NCBI RefSeq assembly: GCF_017565745.1
Contig: NZ_JAGDYM010000004.1
Span: forward strand, 124,001 to 188,000
DNA length: 64,000 bases
DNA from: Leucobacter weissii
GTDB taxonomy: Bacteria > Actinomycetota > Actinomycetes > Actinomycetales > Microbacteriaceae
Direction: 5' to 3'
The translations under genes and the position numbers were made by a program. The notes under the pieces are model-generated. The model was not told the DNA's origin, made no database searches, and saw nothing but the letters and a program-made list of their open reading frames with translations. Shown piece after piece: positions 9,057-53,187 of this stretch (positions within the stretch are counted from its first letter, which is position 1; every line of letters begins with the position of its first letter).

Positions 9057-10241
9057 ATGACTCCCAGCGAACGGCAACCGCCGACCGCATCGCGGCGCTC
9101 GCGCATCCCGGCCTTCGAGGTCATGCGGATCACCGACGAGATCGCCCGCCGCCGTCTCGCCGGCCACGACGTCGTCTCGCTGTGCGCAGGGGAGCCGAGC
9201 GCGCGCCCCGCACCCGGCACGCTGAAGCCCGCGGGCTACACGGGTCCGCTCGGCACCTCGCCGCTGCGCGAGGCGATCGCCGGCCACTACCGGGACTGGT
9301 ACGGCGTCGACGTCGATCCCGCGAGGGTCGCCGTCACGACCGGGTCGTCCGGCGCGTTCCAGCTGGTGTTCCTCGCCGCCTTCGACCCCGGCGACCGGGT
9401 CGCCCTCGCCAGCCCCGGGTACCCCGCCTACCGGAACATCCTCACCGCGCTCGGCGTGCGCGTGGTCGAGATCCCCACCGGCCCGGAGACCCGATACCAG
9501 CCGACCCCGGAGCTGCTCGACGCGGCGATCACCGATCACGGGGAGTTCGCCGGACTCGTCGTCGCCTCGCCGGCGAATCCCACCGGCACCATGCTCGGCC
9601 GTGCGGAGCTGACCGCGCTCGTCGAGTGGGCGCGGACGCGGGGGGTGCGCCTGATCAGCGACGAGATCTACCACGGCATCACCTTCCCCCGGACCGACGA
9701 CCCGGACCCCCGCGGTGTGACGGCGGTCGAGCTCGGCTCCGAGTCGATCGCGATCAACTCCTTCTCGAAGTACTGGGGGATGACGGGATGGCGACTCGGC
9801 TGGACGGTGCTCCCCGAGAGCCTCGTGGCCCCGCTGGAGGCGCTGGCCTCGAACTTCGCGCTCTCGCCGCCCGCGCCCGCGCAGGAGCTCGCGCTCCGCG
9901 CCTTCACCGACGAGAGCTACGCGGAACGCGACGCCGTGGTCGCGGGCTTCGCCCGGGCCCGGGCGCTGATCCTCGACGCGGCCCCGGAACTCGACTGGGG
10001 CGCCGCGGCGCCGAGCGACGGCGCCTTCTACTACTACAGCGAACTCGGCCCGCAGCTCGCGCGCTTCGGCAGCGCGACCGCCTACGCCCGTGCCCTGCTC
10101 GAGGGCGCCGACGTCGCGGTGGTACCGGGCGTCGACTTCGACCCGCTCGCCGGCGAGCGCGCCGTCCGCCTCTCCTACGCCGCGGGGGAGCCGGCCGTCG
10201 CCGAGGCGCTCGACCGGATCCTCCGCTTCCAGGCGCGCTGA
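9057..10241 (+). CDS. Pyridoxal-phosphate-dependent aminotransferase, class I/II
   Basis: 394 aa, the normal length for fold-type I aspartate-like aminotransferases. Visible landmarks are GPLGTSPLREAIAGHY, VTTGSSGAFQLVF (cofactor phosphate loop), SPANPTGTM (Asn contacting PLP), SDEIYHGI (Asp and Tyr contacting PLP) and NSFSKYWGMTGWRLGW, whose Lys forms the Schiff base. A C-terminal Arg in ERAVRLSYA would bind the substrate carboxylate. It moves an amino group between an amino acid and a 2-oxo acid in the cytoplasm; the sequence does not fix the substrate. It is a single-gene unit followed by a palindromic repeat element. Confidence 0.9.
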   Translation: MTPSERQPPTASRRSRIPAFEVMRITDEIARRRLAGHDVVSLCAGEPSARPAPGTLKPAGYTGPLGTSPLREAIAGHYRDWYGVDVDPARVAVTTGSSGAFQLVFLAAFDPGDRVALASPGYPAYRNILTALGVRVVEIPTGPETRYQPTPELLDAAITDHGEFAGLVVASPANPTGTMLGRAELTALVEWARTRGVRLISDEIYHGITFPRTDDPDPRGVTAVELGSESIAINSFSKYWGMTGWRLGWTVLPESLVAPLEALASNFALSPPAPAQELALRAFTDESYAERDAVVAGFARARALILDAAPELDWGAAAPSDGAFYYYSELGPQLARFGSATAYARALLEGADVAVVPGVDFDPLAGERAVRLSYAAGEPAVAEALDRILRFQAR

Positions 10242-10312
10242 GGCGGCCCCGCGCGACCACAGGTCGCGGTCGCGCGGGCGCGTCGCCGCGCCGAACGAGT
10301 GAGGCCGGCTTG

Positions 10313-10376
10313 CGCGAGTGGGATCGGTTTGGGCGGTCGAATCCGGTTCCACTCGTGAAACATGAACCCACTCGCG
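10313..10376. repeat. Palindromic intergenic element, copy A
   Basis: CGCGAGTGGG (10313-10322) and its complement CCCACTCGCG (10367-10376) enclose the core GCGGTCGAATCCGG (10333-10346). The same arrangement and nearly the same core recur at 40208-40288. It fills the gap between the converging aminotransferase gene and the hypothetical gene at 10403. Confidence 0.6.
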
Positions 10377-10402
10377 AGCGACGCGGGCGCGTCGCCGCAC
10401 GA

Positions 10403-10885
10403 TCAGTCGAAGCGGATCGGTGTGCCCGCGGCGATTCCGGTGCGGGATTGGAGCGCGTGATCGACGGTGGCCGGGGGGCTTCCCGCTCTGTCGATGGAGA
10501 GATTGAGCTCCGCCAGCACGGCGCTCTCCGCGCCGTCGAGGGACAGCACGATCGCGGTGACCGCGCCGAGCAGCGGCTCCGGCAGTTCGGCGCCGGCACG
10601 AGCGATGACCGAGCGTGCGGCGGCCGCGAGCCCCGACGGGCCGGGAACCCGGAGTCGCTTCGACGCGCGAGCATAGTCCACGCCGTCACCCGACAGCGCG
10701 ACGCAGACGAGTTCGCCGCCCTCGCGGGTCACCCGCAGTTCGAGCGTGCTCGAGGTCGAGACCGGAGGCCCGCCCGAGGCGCCGACGAAGGGGAGCGGGA
10801 TGCCGGACGGAGCGCCGTCCGCGCCGCGATCCGAATGATCGTGCGGCTCGGGCGACGCCCCGCCGAAGGTGAACTTCAGGCTCAT
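10403..10885 (-). CDS. Hypothetical protein, 160 aa
   Basis: I do not recognise this protein. It starts MSLKFTFGG, has a low-complexity stretch (residues ~10-40, rich in His, Asp, Gly and Pro), then an alpha/beta segment ([43 protein letters not shown]). There is no signal peptide or TM segment, so it is probably cytosolic. ATG 10885 lies 8 nt downstream of a TACGCT hexamer, so a leaderless start is likely. The GGAGG next to the ATG leaves only a 2-nt gap. It is convergent with the aminotransferase gene and about 200 bp from ald. Confidence 0.6.
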
Positions 10886-10892
10886 GGCCTCC

Positions 10893-10898
10893 AGCGTA
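10893..10898 (-). promoter_or_regulatory. -10 element of a probable leaderless promoter (hypothetical gene)
   Basis: TACGCT on the minus strand, 7 nt before ATG 10885. Confidence 0.4.
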
Positions 10899-10970
10899 TC
10901 GCGCTGCGCGGAGGTCCGAGACGTGCTCGACCCGGACGGGTGGCCCCGAGCGAGAGGCATCCTCCGCGAC

Positions 10971-11028
10971 GAGAATGGCGTTTCGCGTCTGGTGCGGAGG
11001 GTGCTCCTCGTGGCGGAGCGCCATTCTC
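10971..11028. repeat. Inverted repeat with 10-bp perfect arms downstream of ald
   Basis: GAGAATGGCG (10971-10980) and CGCCATTCTC (11019-11028) flank a 38-bp loop. An overlapping second pair (CCTCCGC at 10961, GCGGAGG at 10994) could form an alternative hairpin. It lies just beyond the ald stop codon and could act as a terminator or 3' stability hairpin. Confidence 0.5.
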
Positions 11029-11055
11029 GCGGGTCCCGGGGGCGGGTCCCGGTCC

Positions 11056-11085
11056 GGGTCCGGGGGTTGGGGGTCGGGTTCGGGG
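11056..11085 (+). other. Potential G-quadruplex next to the ald stop codon
   Basis: Five G-runs (3, 5, 5, 3 and 4 bases at 11056, 11062, 11069, 11076 and 11082) are separated by loops of 2-3 bases. The last run ends at 11085 and the ald stop codon begins at 11086. The G-rich strand is the template strand for ald. Confidence 0.5.
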
Positions 11086-12210
11086 CTACGCCGAGGCCAG
11101 CACCTCGCCGTAGGGCGTGTAGGCGAGATCGGTGAAGGCCTCGTGCACGCCGTGGTTGGTCACCGCCCCCTCGTGAGCGTTCAGGCCCTTCGCCAGCGAC
11201 TCGTCGGCGGACAGCGCCGCGCGCCACCCCTTGTCGGCCAGCGCCACGATGTAGGGCAGCGTCGCGTTGGTGAGCGCCGCCGTCGAGGTCTCGGGCACGG
11301 CGCCCGGCATGTTGGCGACGCAGTAGTAGATCGAGTTGTGCACGGGGAACGTGGGATCGTCGTGCGTGGTCGGGCGGGAGTTCTCGAAGCAGCCGCCCTG
11401 GTCGATCGCGATGTCCACCAGCACGGAGCCGGCCTTCATCTGGGCGACCATCTCGTCGGTGACGAGCTTCGGCGCCTTCTCGCCCGGGATCAGCACCGAG
11501 CCGATCACGAGATCGGCGTCCTTCAGCGCCTCGGTGATGTTGAGCGCGTTCGAGGTGCGGGTCTGGATGCGGCCGTTGAACTCGTCCTCCAACTGCTTGA
11601 GGCGCGGGATCGCGATGTCGATCACGGTGACCTCGGCGCCCATGCCGTAGGCGATGCGCGCGGCCTGCTCGCCCGCGGCGCCGCCGCCGATCACCACGAC
11701 CTTGCCGCGCCGGGTCGCGGTGACGCCGCCGAGCAGCACGCCGCGGCCGCCGTTCGCCTTCATCAGGCTGTAGGCGCCGACCTGCACCGAGAGCCGGCCG
11801 GCCACCTCGCTCATCGGGGCGAGCAGCGGCAGCGCACGGCTCGGCAGCTGCACCGTCTCGTAGGCGATCGCGGTGGTGCCGGAGGCGAGCACGGCCTCGG
11901 TGAGGGTCTTGTCGGCGGCGAGGTGCAGATAGGTGAAGAGCACCTGGCCCTTGCGGAGCTTGTCGTACTCGGCGGCGATCGGCTCCTTGACCTTGAGGAT
12001 CAGGTCGGCGGACGCCCAGACCTCGTCTGCGGTGGGGGCGATGGTGGCGCCGGCGGCGACGTAGTCCGCATCGGTGATGGCGGAGCCGAGGCCGGCTCCC
12101 GCCTGGACGAGCACCTCGTGCCCGCGGCGCTTCAGCTCGAAGACCCCGGCCTGGGTGATGGCGACGCGGTTCTCGTTGTTCTTGATCTCGGTGGGGATAC
12201 CGACACGCAT
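11086..12210 (-). CDS. ald: Alanine dehydrogenase
   Basis: 374 aa, close to the usual ~371. It catalyses NAD-dependent reversible deamination of L-alanine to pyruvate and ammonia. The N-terminus [19 protein letters not shown] is characteristic. The substrate-binding Lys (ILKVKEPI) and catalytic His (TYLHLAAD) are present, followed by the NAD-binding Rossmann loop [14 protein letters not shown] and the conserved [12 protein letters not shown] segment with the catalytic Asp. ATG 12210 has GGGAG 7 nt upstream. The gene is divergent from an Lrp/AsnC regulator; in mycobacteria ald is controlled by the neighbouring Lrp-type AldR, so the same control is inferred here. Confidence 0.96.
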
Positions 12211-12321
12211 GATTCTGCTCCCTCGTGTTCGCTTGGCTGACTGCGAGCGGTCCGGGGTACATCCTGCGCTTCGCTGCGCGGAGCCGAACGAGCCGACCAC
12301 TCGAATACGGTTCCGATTCTG

Positions 12322-12360
12322 CACTATATTCGCCGGTAACGGTGGTGTATAGAATATTCT
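12322..12360. promoter_or_regulatory. AT-rich dyads in the ald/Lrp divergent region (candidate operator and promoter)
   Basis: The 12211-12412 gap is unusually AT-rich between 12300 and 12380. It holds a perfect palindrome AGAATATTCT (12351-12360) and an inverted pair CTATA (12324-12328)/TATAG (12348-12352). Lrp-family octamers typically bind several such AT-rich dyads. The exact -35/-10 boxes are not clear. Confidence 0.45.
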
Positions 12361-12412
12361 TCGAAGCAATCGGGGATATCTCGGTGCATTGACCGAAGGG
12401 GCTCGGGAAGAC

Positions 12413-12901
12413 ATGGAACCGTCGAAGAATCTGCGAGTCGAGCCCGTGCTCGACGAGGTCGACCGTCTGATCGTGGAGGAGCTCCAGCGGAACGGCAGGA
12501 TCACCAACGCGGAGCTCGCCGAGCGCGTCGGCATCGCCGCCTCGACCTGCGTGGCCCGGGTGCGCGGGCTGGTGGCGCGCCGGGTGATCACGGGCTTCAC
12601 CGCCCGTGTGGATCCGGGCGTCATCGGCATGAACCTCCAGGTGCTGGTGAGCGTGTCGCTCCGGGCCGGAGCGCGTCAGCGCCTCAGCGAATTCAGCGAT
12701 GAGCTGCGAGAGCTGCCCGAGGTGCTGCAGCTCTTCTTCCTGGGCGGCGTCGAGGATTTCATCATCCACCTCGCCGCGCGCGACTCGGACCACATCCGCG
12801 ATTTCGTGACGGACCACCTCTCCGCCCATCCGGCGGTGTCGTCGACGCGCACGAGCATCGTCTTCAGCCATCACCAGAACCCCGTCCATCTCAGGGGCTG
12901 A
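12413..12901 (+). CDS. Lrp/AsnC-family transcriptional regulator (probable ald regulator)
   Basis: 162 aa from ATG 12413 (GGAAG just upstream); an in-frame TTG at 12389 would add 8 residues. The N-terminal winged HTH is clear: [18 protein letters not shown], then [23 protein letters not shown], residues ~12-55. The C-terminal RAM/AsnC effector domain follows ([44 protein letters not shown]). Its position divergent from ald suggests an alanine-responsive activator like mycobacterial AldR. The effector and targets are inferred. Confidence 0.9.
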
Positions 12902-12924
12902 TCGCTCGGCGGCCGCTCGGGTGC

Positions 12925-13179
12925 GTTGAATAGGTCCGTGCGCTGGCGAGGATGTGCCCGGGGCGTGCGCTCGCAAGGCGGAGAAGCGAGGCGATGCCGG
13001 AAGGCTCGCACCGGGCGCTCGAAGCAACGCATCGCGTTGCGCGCCCACGTGCCGAGGGCCGCATGCGGCCCTCGGTGCAGGCGCCCAGGGCAGAGCAACG
13101 CTCTGCCGCGCCGTCGACTGACGACAACGCTGCGAGCGTGCGTCACGGGTGCACCGCAGCGCGTTCGGACCTATTCAAC
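12925..13179. repeat. 255-bp nested cruciform element with terminal inverted repeats
   Basis: The stretch begins GTTGAATAGGTCCG (12925-12938) and ends with its exact complement CGGACCTATTCAAC (13166-13179). The similarity between the arms continues imperfectly inwards for about 50 bp. Inside are three perfect hairpins: GCAACGC/GCGTTGC (13024-13040), a 24-bp uninterrupted palindrome (13052-13075, centre GCATGC) and GGCAGAGC/GCTCTGCC (13089-13107). No coding frame fits. It separates the Lrp gene from the convergent YczE-like gene and could act as a strong bidirectional terminator or be a non-autonomous repeat element. Confidence 0.75.
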
Positions 13180-13189
13180 GTGCCCTAGC

Positions 13190-13846
13190 TCAGTCGTCGC
13201 CCGAGCCGGTCCCGCCGTCCGGCGCGTCGCGCGCGAGCGGGATGTTGAAGATGCGCAGGAAGACCTGGCAGAGCGGTCCGATCGCGAGAGCGAACGCGAC
13301 GGTGCCGAAGCCGACGTTCCCGCCGAGCAGCCAGCCGAGCGTCACGACGGTCACCTCGAGCCCCGTCCGGGTGATCCAGATGGGCAGCCCGGTGACCCGG
13401 TGCAGCCCCGTCATGAGCCCGTCCCGCGGTCCGGGTCCGAGACGAGCCCCGATGTAGAGGCCCGTCGCCGCGCCGACCGTCACGATGCCGGCGGCGAGCG
13501 CGAGGATCCTCAGCCAGAGCGGCTCCGCCTCCGGGATCAGGAGCAGCCCGGCGTCCGCGGCCGGCCCGACCAGCACCGCGTTGCACACCGTGCCGATGCC
13601 GGGGCGCTCGCGCAGCGGGATCCAGCACAGGAGGACGACGATGCTGACGAGCACGGTGGTCGTGCCGAAGCTCAGCGGGACGTGCCCGATGATCCCGAGC
13701 GTGAGCACATCCCAGGGCGAGGCGCCGAGCGTGCCGCGCACGATGAGCGCGATGCCGATCCCGTAGAGGAACAGCCCGAGCAGCAGCTGCGCGCTGCGGC
13801 GGCCGACCCGCTCGGGCGTTCGCATTCGACTACGGTCCGCAGACAT
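13190..13846 (-). CDS. YczE/YyaS-like integral membrane protein
   Basis: 218 aa with about five TM segments (22-42, 50-70, ~80-100, 110-130, 165-190). It shows typical YczE-family motifs: an early GIGIALIVRGTLGASPWDVL, then LGPGPRDGLMTGL in the middle. Members are poorly characterised; in Bacillus YczE influences secondary metabolism and in actinobacteria it often sits beside a GntR regulator. ATG 13846 has GAGG 5-6 nt upstream. It starts 27 nt after the antiporter stop codon, so the two probably form an operon. The tail (residues ~205-218) is Gly/Asp-rich. Confidence 0.75.
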   Translation of the reverse strand: MSADRSRMRTPERVGRRSAQLLLGLFLYGIGIALIVRGTLGASPWDVLTLGIIGHVPLSFGTTTVLVSIVVLLCWIPLRERPGIGTVCNAVLVGPAADAGLLLIPEAEPLWLRILALAAGIVTVGAATGLYIGARLGPGPRDGLMTGLHRVTGLPIWITRTGLEVTVVTLGWLLGGNVGFGTVAFALAIGPLCQVFLRIFNIPLARDAPDGGTGSGDD

Positions 13847-13873
13847 CGCCGCCTCGCCGCCGGGATCCGACGC

Positions 13874-15646
13874 TCAATGCTTCGACGGCGGCGTGAGCCG
13901 CAGCTCGTGCGCGTCGAGCGCGGCCTCGGCCGCGCGCAAGGCCTCGCTGCTGTACTGCCCGACCGCTCGTTCCTCGAGCAGCGTCGCACGCTGCGCATCG
14001 AGGACGATGCGGGCGAGGCGCAGCTGCGCGCGGGCCTCGTCCTCGGCCGGCGTGCGCTCGGCGTCGGGGGACTGCGGCAGCGCGAACGCCATGGACGCCA
14101 CCGAGCCGCGCACGTTCGAGCGCGCGCGATCGATCACCGTCTCGGAGGGGACGGGGTGCGCCGGATCCGCCTCGGCCAGCTCCCGGTCGTGCTCGATCGC
14201 TGCGTCGAGGGCCGACTCGCCCGCCTCGGCGAGGTCGGAGGCGAGCGCCGTCAGCTCCTGGGAGCGATCCCCCGCCGAGGGGCCCGACGGCCGCAGTTTG
14301 CGGATCATGCCCGGGAGGGTGAGGCCGTGGAGCAGCAGCGTGGCGACGGCCACGAGGAAGGCGATGAGCACCAGTTGCGAGCGGTAGGGAACGGAGGTGG
14401 GGATCGACTGCGCCGCGGCCAGGGTGACCACGCCGCGCATGCCGCTCCAGCCGAGGATGGTCGCCCCTCGCCAGTCGAGCCCCTGATCCCTCGCGTGCGC
14501 GGCATCGGCAGCGGTGCGGCGCACCATGCGGTCGAAGCGCCGCAGTCGCATCGCCTGCGTGTCGGTCGGCGCGCTGGAGCGCGGATGGGCCTCCACCCGC
14601 TTCGCGAGCCGACGCATGCCCGCGGCCCGGGCCTCGGCGCGGGGGAGCGCCCGCGCCAGGGCCCAGGTCACCGGCCACATGAACGCCATGCGCAGCAGGA
14701 TCAGCACGACCACGACGCCGAGGGCGAGCAGCAGCGTCCGGCTCAGGTGGACGTCGCTGCGGGCGACGTCGTCGACCAGCTTGTGCAGCTCGAGCCCCAT
14801 CAGCAGGAACACGCCGTTCTCGAGCAGGAACTGCGCCGTGCGCCAGTTCAGACGCTCGTTCACGCGTGCGGTCGCGCTGAACTTGTGCGGCGCGTGGTGC
14901 CCGGAGTAGAGCCCGGTGACGACCACGGCGAGCACGCCCGAGGCGCCGAGGTACTCGGTCGGCACGAAGGCGATGAAGGGCACGGTGAACGAGACGACGG
15001 TGTCGTGGATCGGGTTGCTGAGCTTCGATCGCACCCACACGGTGATCGCGCCGACGAGGAGGCCGATGATGATGGCGACGACCACGGCGAAGGCGAAGGT
15101 CGCCGCCGCCTCCCAGAACACGAAGCCCCCGGCCACGGCCGCGATCGCGGTGCGCAGGAGCACGAGGGACGTGGCGTCGTTCACCAGGCTCTCGCCCTCG
15201 AGAATGGTGACGAGGCGCGGCGGCATGCCGACCCGCTTGCCGATCGAGGTCGCGGCGACGGCGTCGGTGGGGGCGACGACGGCTCCGAGCGCCACGGCCG
15301 CGGCGAAGGGGATGGCGGGCACGACCAGGTGGAGCAGAGCGCCGATCGCGATGGCCGAGATGATGACGAGCACCACCGAGAGCGCGGAGATGGGTCCGAG
15401 GTCGCGCCGCAGATCGAGCACGGGCACGTTCACCGCGGCCGCGTAGAGCAGCGGCGGCAGCACCCCGAGCAGGATGATCTCGGGATCGATCGAGATCAGC
15501 GGGACGCCGGGGATGTAGCCGATGCCGATGCCGAGCACGACGAGGATCAGGGGCGCGGCGACGTTGATGCGGCTGGCGAGCATCGCGACCGCGACGACCG
15601 CGATCAGCGCGGCGATGCCGATCAGCGACAGCTCTTCGATGTCCAT
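13874..15646 (-). CDS. Na+/H+ antiporter, CPA1 (NhaP/NHE) family
   Basis: 590 aa. Residues 1-~395 form a CPA1 transporter with 11-13 TM segments. The motifs for ion exchange are clear: VVAPTDAVAATS (Asp in TM5) and ILEGESLVNDATSLVL (Asn-Asp motif of TM6). The second domain resumes with WRGATILGWSGMRGVVTLAAAQSIP, another CPA1 signature. The C-terminal ~150 residues are soluble, rich in Glu/Asp/Arg and helical, like regulatory tails of the family. It exchanges Na+ or K+ for H+ across the cytoplasmic membrane in pH and salt homeostasis. ATG 15646 is 7 nt from a TACCCT hexamer, so the mRNA is probably leaderless. Confidence 0.92.
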   Translation of the reverse strand: MDIEELSLIGIAALIAVVAVAMLASRINVAAPLILVVLGIGIGYIPGVPLISIDPEIILLGVLPPLLYAAAVNVPVLDLRRDLGPISALSVVLVIISAIAIGALLHLVVPAIPFAAAVALGAVVAPTDAVAATSIGKRVGMPPRLVTILEGESLVNDATSLVLLRTAIAAVAGGFVFWEAAATFAFAVVVAIIIGLLVGAITVWVRSKLSNPIHDTVVSFTVPFIAFVPTEYLGASGVLAVVVTGLYSGHHAPHKFSATARVNERLNWRTAQFLLENGVFLLMGLELHKLVDDVARSDVHLSRTLLLALGVVVVLILLRMAFMWPVTWALARALPRAEARAAGMRRLAKRVEAHPRSSAPTDTQAMRLRRFDRMVRRTAADAAHARDQGLDWRGATILGWSGMRGVVTLAAAQSIPTSVPYRSQLVLIAFLVAVATLLLHGLTLPGMIRKLRPSGPSAGDRSQELTALASDLAEAGESALDAAIEHDRELAEADPAHPVPSETVIDRARSNVRGSVASMAFALPQSPDAERTPAEDEARAQLRLARIVLDAQRATLLEERAVGQYSSEALRAAEAALDAHELRLTPPSKH

Positions 15647-15652
15647 GTGTCC

Positions 15653-15658
15653 AGGGTA
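15653..15658 (-). promoter_or_regulatory. -10 element of a probable leaderless promoter (antiporter)
   Basis: TACCCT on the minus strand, 6 nt before ATG 15646, without a Shine-Dalgarno sequence. Confidence 0.4.
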
Positions 15659-15802
15659 GCGGCGGGCGGCGAGACGGTGCTCTCCGAGCTCGGATCCTCG
15701 AGCGGCGCGTGGGCGGATGCACCACCGTGACGGGGGCGCGGGGGATTCGTGCTCACGCGTCGGGCGCAGCGGCGCGTGCGCGAGGAGGAAGCGGGGCCGG
15801 GC

Positions 15803-16897
15803 TCAGAAGCGGGCTCGGGCGTACTGCGGCGGCACGAGTGAAGCCGCGTTCTCTGCCCGCAGCCGGTGCGCCCAGGCGATCGGCAGGTGCGGGTCGGCGA
15901 GCAGCGGACGCGCCAGCGAGATCACGTCGGCCTGCCCGGAGGCGAGGATCCCCTCGGCCTGCTCCGGCTGAGTGATCAGCCCGACGGCGCCGACCGGCAG
16001 CCCGGCCTCGCGGACCCGCGCCGCGATCGGCACCTGGTACGAGGGGCCGACCGGGATGGGCGCGCGCCCGGTGTTGCCGGCGGACGAGCAGTCGATCAGA
16101 TCGGCGCCGTCCTCGGCCAGCCAGCCCGTCAGCTGCACCGCGGCGTCCCGGTCGAACCCTCCCTCGACCCACTCGTCGCCGGAGATGCGCACGATGATCG
16201 GCAGCTCGGGATGCGCCGCGCGGATCCCGCGCACCACCTCGCGGGTGAGACGCGCCCGGTTCTCGGGGGTGCCACCGTACCCGTCCGTGCGCCGGTTGCT
16301 CAGGGGCGAGAGGAACTCGTGCAGCAGGTAGCCGTGCGCGGCGTGCACCTCGACCGCGTCGAAGCCGATCCGCACCGCGCGCTCGGCCGCGGCGACGAAG
16401 GCCTCGACCACGCCCTCGATCCCGGCGACGGAGAGCTCGCGCGGGGTCGCGAGGCCGTCGAACGGCTCGGCGGAGGGCGCCACCGTCTGCCAGCCGCCCG
16501 CTCCCTCCGGCACCGAGCCCTCGGGCTCGCCCGGCAGTGAGCGGTAGGTCGACGCCTTCCGGCCCGCGTGCGCCAACTGGATCCCGATCCGAGCCCCGTG
16601 CGCCCGCACGAGCGGCACGATCCGCGCGAAGGCGGCTTCCTGCTCGTCGCTGTAGAGTCCGAGGCAGCCCGGGCTGATCCGGCCCTCGGGCACCACCGCG
16701 GTCGCCTCGACCATCACCAGCCCGGCCCCGCCCCGACCGAGCCCGCCGAGATGCTGCACGTGCCAGTCCCCGGGCACGCCTTCCCCGGGGCCGCTCTCGG
16801 CGACGGCCGAGTACTGGCACATCGGCGCCGCCCAGAGGCGGTTGCGGATCTCGAGCCCGCGGAGGCGGTACGGCTGGAAGAGGAGGGGGTTCGCCAT
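15803..16897 (-). CDS. NADH:flavin oxidoreductase, old yellow enzyme (YqjM-like)
   Basis: 364 aa TIM-barrel flavoenzyme. YqjM-type features: PMCQYSA near residue 25 with the conserved Cys that tunes FMN, QLAHAGRKAS, FDAVEVHAAHGYLLHEFLSP (catalytic His and its partner) and NRRTDGYGG. The C-terminal strand ISLARPLLADP binds the FMN phosphate. It reduces activated C=C bonds using NAD(P)H. ATG 16897 follows TAGAAT by 7 nt and lacks an RBS, so it is likely leaderless; an open extension upstream (to 17020) is not homologous. It faces away from the DUF6891 gene. Confidence 0.93.
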   Translation of the reverse strand: MANPLLFQPYRLRGLEIRNRLWAAPMCQYSAVAESGPGEGVPGDWHVQHLGGLGRGGAGLVMVEATAVVPEGRISPGCLGLYSDEQEAAFARIVPLVRAHGARIGIQLAHAGRKASTYRSLPGEPEGSVPEGAGGWQTVAPSAEPFDGLATPRELSVAGIEGVVEAFVAAAERAVRIGFDAVEVHAAHGYLLHEFLSPLSNRRTDGYGGTPENRARLTREVVRGIRAAHPELPIIVRISGDEWVEGGFDRDAAVQLTGWLAEDGADLIDCSSAGNTGRAPIPVGPSYQVPIAARVREAGLPVGAVGLITQPEQAEGILASGQADVISLARPLLADPHLPIAWAHRLRAENAASLVPPQYARARF

Positions 16898-16904
16898 ACG
16901 GCAG

Positions 16905-16910
16905 ATTCTA
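16905..16910 (-). promoter_or_regulatory. -10 element of a probable leaderless promoter (old yellow enzyme)
   Basis: TAGAAT on the minus strand with 7 nt to ATG 16897. It is the closest match to consensus among the leaderless promoters here. Confidence 0.5.
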
Positions 16911-16971
16911 CCGCCGACGGCCGGGCGCGCCGTGCTTGCCCGGGGACTCGCCCGGATGGGAGCATTGGGGC

Positions 16972-17640
16972 ATGAGCACAGACTGGTACGCCGCGCCGGA
17001 GAGCTACGAGATCCCCGCATCGTGGGGCCTGGAGGACGAGGACCGGGAGATCCTCCGCGATTCCGCCTGGTCGCTGATCCTGAAGGGCGAGAACGACCCG
17101 GCCGAGTTCGTCGCCCTCTTCGAGGACGAGCTGGCCGAGGCCGGGGTGGCCGAGGAGCGCGCGCTCGCGTTCTTCGCCTCCGCGATCGAGTTGCGCCGAC
17201 GGCAGCAGGACGAGCTGGGCGGACCGCCGGAGTCGCGCCTCTCCCGTGCCTTCGCCGAACTCGCGGAGATCGGCGTGCTCGGGCGCGAGGACTTCACCTG
17301 CTGCGGCACCTGCGGCTCCGCGGAGATCTGGGACGAGCGGGACGACTCGCGGGTCTGGCGGGGCTACCTCTACTACCACACCCAGGACGCCGAGCGGATC
17401 CCGGAGGATCGCAGCACCTACGTCGGCTACGGGGCCTTCCTCGACGCGCATCTCCCGGAGGACGAGTGGAACGCGCTGAACGAGGAGCAGCAGGACGAGC
17501 GCTACGAGCGGATCGTCACGGGGCTGATGGTCGACGAGGTGTTCCCCGTGCTCGAACGGCACGGCATCGAGGTGAGCTGGAACCGCGATCTCGGCACGCG
17601 GATCCTGCTGTCGAACGTCGATCTCTTCGTCGCCGTGTAG
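16972..17640 (+). CDS. DUF6891-like protein, 222 aa
   Basis: A cytosolic, acidic protein with no signal peptide or TM segment. The central FTCCGTCGSAEIWDE motif (two adjacent Cys, then CGTCG) resembles the DUF6891 group, which has no known function. It is followed by GYLYYHTQDAERI and a C-terminal segment (GIEVSWNRDLGTRILL) that could be a ligand-binding fold. The Cys cluster might bind metal, but that is only a guess. ATG 16972 was chosen because the homologous acidic region starts soon after; an in-frame ATG at 16936 would give a longer, unlikely N-terminus. Confidence 0.75.
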   Translation: MSTDWYAAPESYEIPASWGLEDEDREILRDSAWSLILKGENDPAEFVALFEDELAEAGVAEERALAFFASAIELRRRQQDELGGPPESRLSRAFAELAEIGVLGREDFTCCGTCGSAEIWDERDDSRVWRGYLYYHTQDAERIPEDRSTYVGYGAFLDAHLPEDEWNALNEEQQDERYERIVTGLMVDEVFPVLERHGIEVSWNRDLGTRILLSNVDLFVAV

Positions 17641-48484: not shown

Positions 48485-48718
48485 TTGACGACAACCGTGA
48501 AGCGCTCGAAGACCTCTGCGTGGAGGTGGGACGAGTATTCGACGTACATCTACCGCCGCACCGTCTCCACCCTCATCGAACGGGTGGCAGGTCTCACGCC
48601 AGCTTCCCGGTTGCTGGGGCATGCAAGTGAGCAGATCACGAGAACCAGTTACGTCGTCAGTGCCGAGGAGGTCGACCCGATCACCGTCGACGTGCTCGAT
48701 AAGATCCTGGGGAGTTGA
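48485..48718 (+). pseudogene. Tyrosine recombinase (integrase), C-terminal fragment
   Basis: Only ~77 residues remain. They contain the C-terminal catalytic boxes: YRRTVSTLIERVAG (Arg of box II), SRLLGHASEQITRTSYV (LGH His and the Tyr nucleophile). The N-terminal core-binding domain and the first catalytic Arg are absent, so it cannot act as an integrase. It marks the island as once integrative. The following gene starts within 60 bp. Confidence 0.75.
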
Positions 48719-49035: not shown

Positions 49036-49157
49036 AAGTTGACGACTCGGAACCGAAGCACGGCGTTCTCGTCGAGGATGCGGTTCTATTTCCTTCGGCG
49101 GCTCCGTCGCGGCATCCGGGCGTGTTCGCCTTCAGTCCTTCCCAGCACGCGACTTGA
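49032..49157 (+). pseudogene. Truncated toxin partner of the RHH antitoxin
   Basis: GTG 49032 overlaps the antitoxin stop by 4 nt. The 41-codon product begins VKVDDSEPKHGVLVEDAV. As I recall, the KHGVxxEDA start resembles toxins that follow this kind of antitoxin, which are usually about twice as long. Here the frame ends by running into the 3' end of the oppositely oriented DUF2075 gene. It is probably a broken toxin; I cannot check the family alignment. Confidence 0.45.
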
Positions 49158-50889
49158 TCGGTGCTGCCGCGGGGAAGTGGGGGCGCAAGTGCTCCCGCAG
49201 TGCCGGGTCGACGACGTGGATATATGTTCCGAGGATGCCGCGGGTGAGGAGCACGGAATAGATGTTCTTCACCAACTTCTCGATATCGTCATGCGCAAGC
49301 TGGATATTGCGGAGTCTGTTGTTCCGCTGCTTGCCGCGAGGGTCGAAATAGTTCGAAGAATCCAGTCGGATCCGGCCCTCCCGGTATACGAGATCTGGGC
49401 CGATGATCACTCCCGCGGTGTTCAGGTCGTAGCCTTGAATCGTGTAAATTGAACCGGCCTCGTCGATCGAGGTCCCCGAGTTCACCCAGTCGATGAGCTT
49501 CCGGTTCCATTGCACGCTGAAATCCCCGATGGTGATATCTCGTACGCTTTCGTATCCGGACTTCTTGCTGACGTGAGGCCATGCGAACCCCGCCAGCAAG
49601 CGGGCCAGCCCGGTGCGCTCATTCTGCTCGCGAATGGAAGCATGCATGTCTGCCGGGTCGTCGTAAAAGCGCAGATCATAGCTGTCGAACGTGCGGGGAT
49701 CCACGCGTTCGCCGCTCAGCAGTCGCCGAATGTGATCCACATAGTCGCCCCCGGCCTGCACACGCAGTTGAGACTCGAGCAGATATCGTCGACCGCTCCG
49801 CGCAGCCTCGTCCGTGAGCTGAGCGATCGTTTCCGCGGGAAGATCCGCCGGAATCACTGCCTGTCCCTCATCGACGATGAGCACCTGATGGTCGCTCTGC
49901 GCGCGAATCCAATCGAGTTGCGTGATGTCGGGGTCCATCTCGCCGAAGAGCCGTGTCGTGATGGTCCGGAAGTCGGCGACGAGCCCACCGAACGACTGCG
50001 CCGCATACTGGCTGAGGCGGTGCGCCTCATCGACGATCAGCAGATCCCACCGAGTGTCCGACTTGCCCACGTTCCAAGGCGTAAGGATCTCGATCTCCCG
50101 GAGTGCTGCGCTGCGGCGGAATACCCGCGTCAGTGTCTCGCGCAGTGCTTGCTGCGGGACCACGAGGCCGATCCGGCGTCCGACGAGTGCTTCCCGGTAG
50201 CCGGAGAGGAAGAAGTCGCCGTAAGGACCGTCGATGTCCTCCTCAAGGATATCCTCGCCCTCGGCCACCGTCTGAATATCGCGCAGCAGCTTCAGCAGCG
50301 TGATCACGACGACCGTCTTGCCCGTGCCGGGGCCGCCCTCGATCACTGAGAGCGAGGGGCGATCGTCTCCGAGATCCTCGAGCAACCCTTCGGTGATGTT
50401 CGACACTGCGGCGGTCTGCACGTCGGTGAGCTGTTTGAAGGGGGAGAACTTGAAGAGGTCGGAGTTCTCGATGTCACGGATCGATCCGTCGAAGAGTCCC
50501 TCCGCTTTGAGCGCCTCGAAGATCTGCTCGTGCGCGGATTGGTAGATATCGCGGTTGAAATAGTTGTAGCTGGTCTGCCCAGCGTTCTTATTGAGGAGGG
50601 TGAACCGTTGGTCTCCGTCGACGTACTTGATGAGAAAGGACTCGAGATCGTGGCAGGCCGACTTGTTGAACGTCTCGTCGATGATCACCCGTGCGACACG
50701 GAGATTCTTCCTGCGCTCGGTAATCTGAAGGTGCTGAGCCATGCGGCTGACCGCCGCGTGGGTTTCTCCGATGTAGGCGTGACGCTCGCCGGTCAGTACA
50801 TACACCACCGGCCAGTTCAGGAGTTCGGCCGGTTCCTGCGGGAGCCCTCCCGTCGCGAATGGGAAACTCAGGATTTCAAAGCCGGTCAT
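49132..50889 (-). CDS. GIY-YIG nuclease-DUF2075 helicase fusion
   Basis: 585 aa. Residues ~25-95 resemble a GIY-YIG nuclease: VVYVLTG (29-35), AYIGET (38-43), the following Arg49 and Glu83 in DLESFLIKYV, matching the Tyr/Tyr/Arg/Glu catalytic set. Residues ~150-570 are a DUF2075 SF1-like ATPase: GGPGTGKTVV (185-194), LLIVDEAHRL (283-292), then VDEGQAVIP and GSIYTIQGYDLNTAGVIIGPDL (motif V-like). It probably acts on DNA or RNA in the cytoplasm. The start overlaps the MazG-like gene by 14 bp, so both are translated together. The pair sits in an island, and related DUF2075/MazG pairings in defence islands are my recollection. Confidence 0.85.
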   Translation of the reverse strand: MTGFEILSFPFATGGLPQEPAELLNWPVVYVLTGERHAYIGETHAAVSRMAQHLQITERRKNLRVARVIIDETFNKSACHDLESFLIKYVDGDQRFTLLNKNAGQTSYNYFNRDIYQSAHEQIFEALKAEGLFDGSIRDIENSDLFKFSPFKQLTDVQTAAVSNITEGLLEDLGDDRPSLSVIEGGPGTGKTVVVITLLKLLRDIQTVAEGEDILEEDIDGPYGDFFLSGYREALVGRRIGLVVPQQALRETLTRVFRRSAALREIEILTPWNVGKSDTRWDLLIVDEAHRLSQYAAQSFGGLVADFRTITTRLFGEMDPDITQLDWIRAQSDHQVLIVDEGQAVIPADLPAETIAQLTDEAARSGRRYLLESQLRVQAGGDYVDHIRRLLSGERVDPRTFDSYDLRFYDDPADMHASIREQNERTGLARLLAGFAWPHVSKKSGYESVRDITIGDFSVQWNRKLIDWVNSGTSIDEAGSIYTIQGYDLNTAGVIIGPDLVYREGRIRLDSSNYFDPRGKQRNNRLRNIQLAHDDIEKLVKNIYSVLLTRGILGTYIHVVDPALREHLRPHFPAAAPIKSRAGKD

Positions 50890-51247
50890 ACTTGTCGCTT
50901 CGTCCGCGGGCCTTCTCGACTGGATATTTCTCTTTCGTCTGCGTCAGTTTCTCCGCGATGATGGTGTCTGGGTCCAGGCCGAGCCGGTCGGCCAACAACA
51001 TGCAGTAGGTGAGCACGTCAGCGAGTTCGTACTTGGCAGAGGCGAGATCAGCGTCGCCCCATTGGAAGCACTCGAGGAGCTCGCCTGCTTCGATGCTGAT
51101 GCTCTTGGCCAGGTTCTCTGGTGTGTGGAACTGCTGCCAATCGCGCTCGGCGACGAAGTCGTGCAGCGCGTCGCGAAGAGATTTCTGATGCACATCTTCA
51201 AAGCTATCAATGAAGGGTCCGCTGCGCGGATAGGTGACATCGAACAT
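50876..51247 (-). CDS. MazG-like nucleotide pyrophosphohydrolase
   Basis: 123 aa. All-alpha NTP pyrophosphatase: DFVAERDWQQFHTPENLAKS, then SIEAGELLECFQW (metal-binding Glu cluster) and KYELADVLTYCMLLADRLGLD (ExxD). It hydrolyses (d)NTPs or a modified nucleotide to NMP and PPi. ATG 51247 gives ~20 residues before the conserved core; the true start and promoter may have been changed by the IS3 element that begins right upstream (~51256). The stop overlaps the start of the GIY-YIG-DUF2075 gene. Confidence 0.88.
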   Translation of the reverse strand: MFDVTYPRSGPFIDSFEDVHQKSLRDALHDFVAERDWQQFHTPENLAKSISIEAGELLECFQWGDADLASAKYELADVLTYCMLLADRLGLDPDTIIAEKLTQTKEKYPVEKARGRSDKYDRL

Positions 51248-51283
51248 GGCTAGCCGTGTGTGCTGGCCTAGAAGTATGGCGTT

Positions 51284-51577
51284 ATGCCCAAACCGTTTCT
51301 CAAGGAGTTCCGAGACGATGTGATCCGGGTCGCGGAGAACCGTGATCCGGAGGTCACGCTTGCGCAGATCGCGAAGGAATTCGGTGTCCATGTCTGCACT
51401 CCCGATAAGTGGATGCGGCAAGCCCGCATCGAGGCGGGTGAGCAGCCGGGTGAGACGAAGTCCGAGTCTGTCGAGTTGCGCGAACTCCGTGAGCGCAACC
51501 GTCTCCTTGAGCAGGAGAATGAGGTGCTGCGTCGCGCGGCGGCGTATCTGCCGCAGGCGCATCTGCCTGCGAAATGA
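51284..51577 (+). CDS. IS3-family transposase OrfA
   Basis: 97 aa. HTH region FLKEFRDDVIRVAENRDP, then LAQIAKEFGVHVCTPDKWMRQA; leucine-zipper-like helix ELRELRERNRLLEQENEVLR at the end. It appears intact and overlaps orfB by 4 nt (ATGA), rather than by the slippery frameshift used in many IS3 members. Confidence 0.88.
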   Translation: MPKPFLKEFRDDVIRVAENRDPEVTLAQIAKEFGVHVCTPDKWMRQARIEAGEQPGETKSESVELRELRERNRLLEQENEVLRRAAAYLPQAHLPAK

Positions 51578-52318
51578 TGTACCCGCTCGTGAGCGAGTTC
51601 GCCGTCGATGGGATTCCCGTCGCGGTGTCGTGCCGGGTATTGAAGCTCTCACGGCAGCTCTACTATCGCTGGTTGTGCAACCCGGTCACCCGGCGGGAGG
51701 TGGACACGGCGTATCGCGCGAACGCGCTGTTCGACGCGCATCGTGATGACCCGGAGTTCGGGTATCGGCTTCTCGCCGATGAGTCCCGTGATGAAGACGG
51801 TGAGGCGATGGCGGATCGCACGGCGTGGAGGGCCGCATCGGAGAATGGCTGGTGGAGCGGAGGGCAAGCTCTACCTCTGCGCCGTCAAGGACGCCTTCAG
51901 CGGTCGGGTCGTGGGCTACTCGATCGACCCGAGGATGAAGGCATCGCTTGCGGTCCGCGCCGTCCGCAACGCCGCCCGGATGCGAAGCAACGTTACGGGC
52001 TGCATCGTCCATTCGGATCGAGGATCGCAGTTTCGAAGCAGGAAACTACGGCGCGAACTCGCGGCGCATAACCTCGTCGGATCGATGAGCAGGGTCGCGT
52101 CCTGCGGCGACAATACCGCGATGGAATCGTTCTTCAGCTTGTTGCAGAAGAACGTCCTGAACCGGCGCTCCTGGGCCACGCGTGAGAAACTACGCATCAC
52201 GATCGTGACCTGGATCGAGCGGACCTACCACAGGCGACGCCGACAACGAGTCCTCGGCAAGTTGACGCCGGTTGAGTTCGAAGCAATTATGACCACACAG
52301 GTCGCGTTCTCGGCCTAA
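51574..52318 (+). pseudogene. IS3-family transposase OrfB, internally deleted
   Basis: The frame starting at 51574 reads normally to SENGWWS (~51857), then shifts frame; the rest continues in another frame from GAEGKLYLCAVKDAFS. Compared with intact OrfB, roughly 40 codons are missing, including the segment that carries the first Asp of the DDE triad. The second Asp (HSDRGSQF) and the Glu (NTAMESFF) remain. Not functional. Confidence 0.85.
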
Positions 52319-52362
52319 CAAAAAGAGACACCAAGACCCTCAGCAGTCCCAAACGGCCCTGC

Positions 52363-52512
52363 GACAGTATTGCTTCAATGCTCGTGGCGTATGCGTCCGA
52401 CTTTGTGGATCTCGGCTACGCAGTCACCGCTCACAGGGCGCAAGGTGTCACCACCGACACCGTCCACACTGTTGCGACGGCGACGGCGACGGCGACGGCG
52501 ACGAGGGAGAAC
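52363..52512 (+). pseudogene. MobF/TraA-type relaxase-helicase fragment
   Basis: About 45 codons read YASDFVDLGYAVTAHRAQGV, then TTDTVHTV, resembling the helicase motif V-VI region (GYAVTAHRAQG) of TraA/MobF relaxases. The fragment then enters a GCGACG repeat and loses similarity. It is a relic of a conjugative element. Confidence 0.6.
52474..52504 (+). repeat. GCGACG microsatellite, about five copies
   Basis: GCGACG is repeated about five times in a row at the end of the relaxase fragment, encoding alternating Ala/Thr in that frame. Such repeats can expand by slippage. Confidence 0.8.
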
Positions 52513-53187
52513 TCAAGCTTCCAGATCAGCCAGGTTCGTTGCCCATTCCTCGGTAACGGCCTGTATCGGGGCGAGTCTGTCAGAGAAGTCGTTGTGCCGA
52601 TTCATGGTGGCTGTCGCGCCGAAGCGGAACTCCCATCGTCCGGTGGGCGAGAACAAGCAGGCTGCGACGACATCGAAGCCATCGATGGGATAGAACCTGG
52701 ACGCGGGGTCGTTCTGGGAGGCGCGGGTCTTCTGCACCTCGACCTTGACGTCGCCGTTGGCGTAGGTCTTTGGGCTGGCGTTCTTGCACTCGACCCGAAG
52801 CATCCGCCCGTCGTCGAGTGTGACGTTGAAGTCGTGCTGAGCGTCGAGGTCGAAACGCTCGACGGATGCGACACCGGTAGCCTGCTGGAGTTGGAGTTCG
52901 AGGTGGTATTCGGCTACGCCACCTCGAACGGTGACCGCCAAACGGTTACGACCGCCGATGATGTCAAGGATCTGCTGACTGGTGAGCGCGAACTGCTCTT
53001 CGAGTACATGACGGCGCGGCACCTCATCAGACGCGTCGCGGGCGGCCATCGCCAAGGCAGCGGATTAGCGCAGCGGCGGATCCAGACGCAGCGAGGTCGC
53101 CCGGCGTTCCAAGCGGGCATAGTCGATCAGCCGGTCGGGGGTGAAGGCGACTACGGTTTCCAGGATCGTTGGGGAGCGTGCCTCGGA
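52513..53187 (-). pseudogene. PD-(D/E)XK-like endonuclease gene split by an in-frame stop
   Basis: The 3' open part (52513-53055, ~180 codons) contains HDFNVTLDDGRMLRVECKN, where Asp and Glu-x-Lys fit a PD-(D/E)XK active site, followed by a beta-rich C-terminus (GRWEFRFGAT). Upstream the same frame continues through a TAA at 53065-53067 to a stop at 53188, and that extra segment (ETVVAFTPDRLIDYARLERR) reads like coding sequence joined to it. A TTG 53055 or ATG 53049 restart would give a protein lacking its first ~40 residues. No start codon is seen for the upstream part, so decay is more likely than a short gene. Confidence 0.55.

Follow-up and report, generated by a model that had tools for sequence, protein, structure and literature searches.

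Two overlapping genes on the reverse strand of a 64,000-nucleotide stretch of the Leucobacter weissii genome (contig NZ_JAGDYM010000004.1, positions 124,001 to 188,000; hereafter the window) encode a nuclease-helicase and a MazG-like pyrophosphohydrolase, and we propose, at a probability of roughly 0.45, that they form a two-gene innate immune module, the nuclease-helicase being the effector and the MazG-like enzyme acting jointly with it on deoxycytidine triphosphate (dCTP) and/or C5-modified dCTP. The superfamily 1 (SF1) motor would load onto foreign, probably replicating, DNA, the fused GIY-YIG nuclease would cut the loaded DNA, as proposed for the defense system Nhi, and the co-translated MazG-like enzyme would hydrolyze dCTP and/or its C5-modified forms in the same act, so that the attacked replicon could be neither resynthesized nor shielded by modified cytosine. 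This probability is a joint figure for starving resynthesis and stripping phage cytosine modification, each acting together with the nuclease. The analysis established the two genes with their intact catalytic residues and their overlap, a coupling that is conserved and also rearranged, two kinds of nuclease head, and a context that is partly that of defense genes and phages.

The larger gene is an open reading frame (ORF) of 585 amino acids (aa) at 49132–50889 of the window, with an N-terminal GIY-YIG nuclease region (approximately residues 1–130; 50500–50889) followed by an SF1 helicase region of the Schlafen group 3 (DUF2075) type (approximately residues 150–570; 49180–50442). The MazG-like (RS21-C6/DCTPP1-like) gene precedes it on the same strand and ends at 50876, so that, as originally predicted, its stop and the helicase start share 14 bp (50876–50889). 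The start of the MazG-like gene had been placed at 51247, inside an IS3 element. It is probably the GTG at 51193, which yields a protein of 105 aa (50876–51193), because the MazG genes of Microbacteriaceae relatives mostly encode 105–106 aa and 51247 lies within the insertion sequence (IS). Both genes had been described as intact, and both look functional, since the catalytic residues do not vary across the alignments and the differences from the nearest relative concentrate at third codon positions.

The pair is more than a local oddity, since it recurs among many bacteria and in some archaea. Across 199 genomes of Microbacteriaceae, the helicase query matched 57 and the MazG query 52. MazG adjoins 49 of the 51 strong helicases (E ≤ 1e-100), in one genome (G093) with about 1.1 kb between the genes; the two without it are in G070 and G018. 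Conversely, MazG was found beside a helicase match in 51 of the 52 MazG-matching genomes (including two broken or remnant loci), and the remaining match (G090) is partial and near a contig end. The overlap measures exactly 14 bp at 43 of 50 family loci (two have no MazG and five differ). When the neighbors of 54 loci were clustered, the MazG cluster occurred at 46 of them, whereas no other cluster occurred at more than 14. The full helicase is patchy, occurring in about a quarter of the family genomes. At one locus (L057 in G153, approximately 9113–17124), a full pair is followed by two helicase fragments with repeated small neighbors, an array that suggests duplication and decay of the module.

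Outside the family, a survey at the level of the phylum matched the helicase in 34 of 396 genomes; among the 28 new loci, examined with flanks of at most about 1.5 kb, a MazG-like frame was present in 16, on the helicase strand in 15 and on the opposite strand in one. When species genomes were searched more widely with the helicase alignment (A1), 204 relatives were found, of which the best 80 loci, selected by their helicase only, were analyzed. MazG was scored as adjacent if it lay less than 1.5 kb from the helicase, upstream or downstream, and in the same orientation. By this definition, it accompanies the helicase at 57 of the 80 loci, while one has it on the opposite strand and 22 are without it. 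The possibility, raised with the original prediction, that homologs would seldom be adjacent is therefore contradicted both in the family (49/51) and in the wider loci (57/80).

Among these 80 loci, the nuclease head is GIY-YIG in 53, PD-(D/E)xK-like in 24, and neither in three, as assigned by two profiles built in this analysis from 15 and 8 sequences; the PD-(D/E)xK label is our own, presumed from an IELKQW-type motif. MazG is adjacent in 44/53 of the GIY-YIG loci, 13/24 of the PD-(D/E)xK-like loci and 0/3 of the headless loci. A helicase tree was built by a rapid procedure that left 26 of 77 inner branches unsupported; the window was added, and loci L150 and L176 were omitted because of their short length. 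The opposite-strand MazG locus was scored as being without MazG, and the three headless rows were set aside for nuclease type. On this tree, a branch with a Shimodaira–Hasegawa-like approximate likelihood ratio test (SH-aLRT) value of 98 separates the PD-(D/E)xK rows from the others, and the minimum number of changes was one for nuclease type, six for the MazG side, and 18 for MazG presence. The distances of MazG and helicase correlate at a Spearman coefficient of 0.28–0.59 within clades and of only 0.19 overall, a value that lends no support to strict co-inheritance across the entire range. Two PD-(D/E)xK systems (L184 and L198) have MazG proteins whose closest counterparts belong to GIY systems of related bacteria, and MazG partners thus look to have been exchanged between the nuclease types. 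As judged from these sequence comparisons, the partnership has been rearranged, and probably re-formed, on several occasions, a history that speaks for a functional link between the two genes.

The two genes also occur on mobile elements. Helicase matches were found in 35 plasmid records and MazG matches in 26, and seven stretches with both were inspected. The genes are adjacent on plasmids of Priestia (L113) and of the haloarchaeon Halalkalicoccus (L114). About 0.5 kb separates them in Halomonas (L119) and Marivirga (L118, with a split helicase frame), and 3.6–10 kb in Nocardiopsis, Hymenobacter, and Paenibacillus. An overlapping pair is present in an unverified phage scaffold (L120), and a scan of a viral library with A1 gave one locus. 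Some of these neighborhoods have a different layout. On the Nocardiopsis plasmid (L116:3381–10385), a MazG-like gene and an HNH endonuclease gene share 4 bp, and nearby are a stand-alone GIY-YIG gene and a DUF2075 gene, as if the module had been unbundled. The Hymenobacter plasmid (L117:1752–12327) has two tandem DUF2075 genes, with MazG about 6 kb downstream by a tetratricopeptide repeat gene and a SIR2 gene further on. Two tandem PF09848 genes were also seen in a Corynebacterium metagenome-assembled genome (L132:4477–8357), with no MazG match within the 14 kb searched.

The larger protein had been described as a GIY-YIG nuclease fused to a DUF2075 helicase, and domain searches agree. PF09848 (DUF2075, "Schlafen group 3") matches residues 180–561 at 7.6e-63 and is found in all 71 aligned relatives, and PF01541 (GIY-YIG), with E 0.12 for the window protein alone, reaches E ≤ 1e-3 in 36 of the 71, window included. 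Residues Y30, Y39, G41, R49, H53, and E83 of the nuclease region are invariant in the 71 sequences, and Y30, Y39, G41, R49, and E83 correspond to what we take to be the GIY-YIG nuclease motif, namely the GIY/YIG tyrosines and then an Arg and a Glu. In the helicase, K191, D287, E288, R376, and Q485 are present in 71/71 and R550 in 70/71, with one gap. The predicted structure (mean predicted local distance difference test, pLDDT, 91.4) matched SLFN11, UvrD, and FBH1 in a fold search, in which residues 1–100, the nuclease, were barely covered and no GIY-YIG structure was among the matches listed.

The MazG-like protein matches PF12643 at 7.6e-19, and its closest PDB chains are those of dCTP pyrophosphatase (dCTP pyrophosphatase 1), at about 1e-16. 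The similarity to DCTPP1 spans residues 23–121 and includes the ERDWxQFH, ExxE, and ExxD motifs; E53, E56, E74, D77, and W37 are present in 77/77 aligned sequences and W63 in 76/77 (numbering from 51247). We assume that the ExxE and ExxD motifs bind metal and that the Trp residues stack on the base, as in the all-alpha NTP pyrophosphatases DCTPP1/RS21-C6. The protein is thus like these enzymes in sequence and motifs, whereas here it is bacterial, its gene is coupled to that of a nuclease-helicase, and its dCTP activity is predicted only. Because human DCTPP1 hydrolyzes dCTP and, in vitro, also C5-modified dCTP (PMC7162842), our best guess, by analogy, is that dCTP or its C5-modified forms serve as the substrate of the partner. 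MazG-like genes are also carried by jumbo phages (PMC7824862).

A dCTPase-like partner could also be the main effector of an abortive infection, in which it would be activated when the helicase senses phage replication and the dCTP pool would collapse. Defense by depletion of deoxynucleotides is established for dCTP deaminase and dGTPase. The helicase family PF09848, moreover, is listed among "Abi" Pfams in PMC10121019. Against such a mechanism stand the GIY-YIG catalytic set, whose invariance (71/71) makes cutting seem needed too, and the 23 of 80 helicase loci at which there is no adjacent same-strand MazG; we consider it unlikely.

No strong match to the pair was found in PADLOC 2.0, in which no model matches MazG and the helicase matches (PDC-S14, AbiO, Nhi, and PDC-S41) are partial. 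Two of these are candidates for which the library gives no description: PDC-S14 matches part of the GIY-YIG portion (3.2e-8 in the window, 5e-11 in L087), and PDC-S41 part of the PD-(D/E)xK-like relatives (4.5e-20 in L117). The closest known systems are Nhi and AbiO, in which, as here, nuclease and helicase domains share one polypeptide. Their models match the window protein at approximately residues 149–204 only (AbiO 1.9e-6, Nhi 4e-6), and, among 10 scanned relatives, the helicase part of those that match, again weakly and partially (best AbiO 2.2e-15, Nhi 4.8e-14). According to PMC12904381, Nhi is a single-gene system, thought to be activated upon detecting phage single-stranded DNA-binding protein, whereas the present system has a conserved MazG partner and a GIY-YIG nuclease at the N terminus. 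The pair was not filed as a member of Nhi/AbiO because the full-length model match fails and a conserved partner is present. By analogy, the nuclease-helicase may most simply be regarded as an Nhi-type effector on foreign replicating DNA.

Other relatives share single features of the pair. The human group III Schlafens SLFN11 and SLFN14 have the PF09848 helicase in common with it, whereas the protein described here has a GIY-YIG domain and no match to the Schlafen core RNase: PF04326 (AlbA_2) was not among the 13 families matched by the window (E ≤ 1) or the 18 matched by the 71 relatives (E ≤ 1e-3). We know of no nucleotide pyrophosphohydrolase partner in Hachiman (HamAB) or Gabija. Both systems use a nuclease and a helicase jointly against phage, as is likewise proposed here (PMC12278908, PMC12904381). 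In Hachiman, the nuclease and the sensor helicase are two subunits, in contrast to the single fused polypeptide of the window. Restriction systems of the McrBC type have a modified-base reader in the operon, whereas the window operon consists of the pair alone, with no reader domain among 10 window proteins scanned. Nor was the pair found described in the open-access literature searched, with preprints and most subscription papers outside that search; the passages of PMC12839542 consulted contain no MazG, GIY-YIG, or DUF2075. The pair was therefore not encountered as a named system in PADLOC 2.0 or in these papers, an outcome that the original prediction had said would count against it. We rate the pair as belonging with the nuclease-helicase defense systems, with the dCTPase-like partner as the new element.

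The defense context is good but uneven. The marker genes within 20 kb of the pair include 10 of 29 loci for 5-methylcytosine (m5C) methylases (nine genomes), versus 0.37 expected, and 5 of 29 for GmrSD_N (four genomes), versus 0.38 expected. A tally of Pfam families in close co-directional neighbors (122 of 126 proteins, without a control set, on gene calls that were the longest ORFs and include some spurious frames) placed MrcB_N (2/122) and GmrSD_C (3/122) among the 25 commonest of 125 families. DUF3578, the methylcytosine-binding ADAM domain of McrB (PMC11090510), lies next to MazG on one plasmid (L113) and next to the helicase on another (L115). On the former, from Priestia (L113:7346–11252), MutT, DUF3578, MazG, and the PD-(D/E)xK-like helicase follow one another, with a restriction locus beyond them, so that two nucleotide hydrolases adjoin a possible methylcytosine reader. 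One copy (L201), in a phage contig, has endolysin on one side and integrase on the other, and a superinfection-exclusion gene is close by.

If the module serves against evasion, the partner would destroy C5-modified dCTP, so that a phage could not incorporate modified cytosine, and the nuclease-helicase, with either a GIY-YIG or a PD-(D/E)xK head, would then destroy the naked replicating DNA; taken by itself, this is doubtful, if somewhat less so than abortive infection. The reader domains also recall a self-protective arrangement, in which the MazG-like enzyme would be an antidote that clears modified (for example, C5-methylated) dCTP and spares the chromosome from a nuclease-helicase triggered by modified cytosine. 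The DUF3578, MrcB_N, and GmrSD_C neighbors would suit it, as would the housecleaning role proposed for DCTPP1 in PMC7162842. It is hard to reconcile with the rarity of reader domains (2/122) and with nearby m5C methylases, which would mark host DNA with m5C, odd if m5C were the trigger, and we place it just behind abortive infection. Starving resynthesis, stripping phage cytosine modification, and host self-protection remain alike compatible with the data. Least probable, in our view, is a role outside defense, as a DNA-repair or maintenance pair on mobile elements in which MazG would clean damaged nucleotides near stalled forks. The patchy distribution, with MazG as the sole constant neighbor, the two types of fused nuclease, the GmrSD and m5C genes nearby, and the position between endolysin and integrase all speak against it.

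Several results also weigh against the joint module proposed here. The 23 of 80 loci without same-strand adjacent MazG indicate that the helicase can exist without such a partner, and the substrate of MazG is not readable from sequence, the dCTP type being predicted from homology. Near the pair were 0 of 23 N6-methylase loci (within 20 kb) and 1 of 5 AIPR loci, and several of the nearby m5C methylases seem to be part of other systems. The PADLOC tally showed only a modest excess, 134 families near the pair versus 97 at 5–10 kb in 147 proteins each (of 286 near and 224 far proteins; the far genes still within about 10 kb), after manual removal of three MazG genes from the near proteins and of one protein from the far ones. 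The original proposal of a two-gene module is thus borne out as regards frequent adjacency and the lack of a named system in the searches above, and its expected enrichment in defense islands is supported by the m5C methylase and GmrSD_N markers and not by N6 methylase, AIPR, or the PADLOC tally. Anti-phage activity, a DNA rather than an RNA target, a dCTP-type substrate, and joint action are predictions of the proposal.

The surroundings of the pair had been regarded as almost all broken, which holds for the integrase, IS3, and relaxase. Upstream is a decayed IS3 element (51215–52343, forward strand), whose left end was set by homology to other copies and whose right end is a guess. Of five further IS copies compared, four show homology to the window from 51212–51215 and one from 51243, and the second frame of the window copy is interrupted. 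The left end of the element (51215–51247) lengthens the MazG frame upstream by an ATG and about 11 codons, and automatic annotation would consequently predict a spurious longer MazG protein. The IS3 end lies about 22 bp upstream of the likely GTG start, and the insertion has probably displaced the native promoter of the pair, both frames of which are intact. Also on the forward strand are an integrase C-terminal fragment of 77 aa (48485–48718; PF00589 E 0.15) and a TraA relaxase-helicase remnant of 41 aa (52378–52500; NF010464 1.5e-5). The supposedly broken endonuclease, on the other hand, is an open ORF of 180 aa on the reverse strand (52513–53055), with a weak PDDEXK_5 match (E 0.07). The GC content is 60–64% at 48–54 kb versus 66–75% in the rest of the window.

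If the proposal is true, the pair would be a widespread two-gene immune module of Bacteria and Archaea that couples DNA destruction to control of the dCTP pool, and it would place a Schlafen-type helicase, joined to different nucleases, in a prokaryotic defense setting. Should the anti-evasion version be true, a prokaryotic relative of the Schlafen helicases would be teamed with the policing of nucleotide pools in both domains. Because the same partnership has been rearranged again and again, active-site mutants would offer a direct test of what the MazG-like enzyme does.
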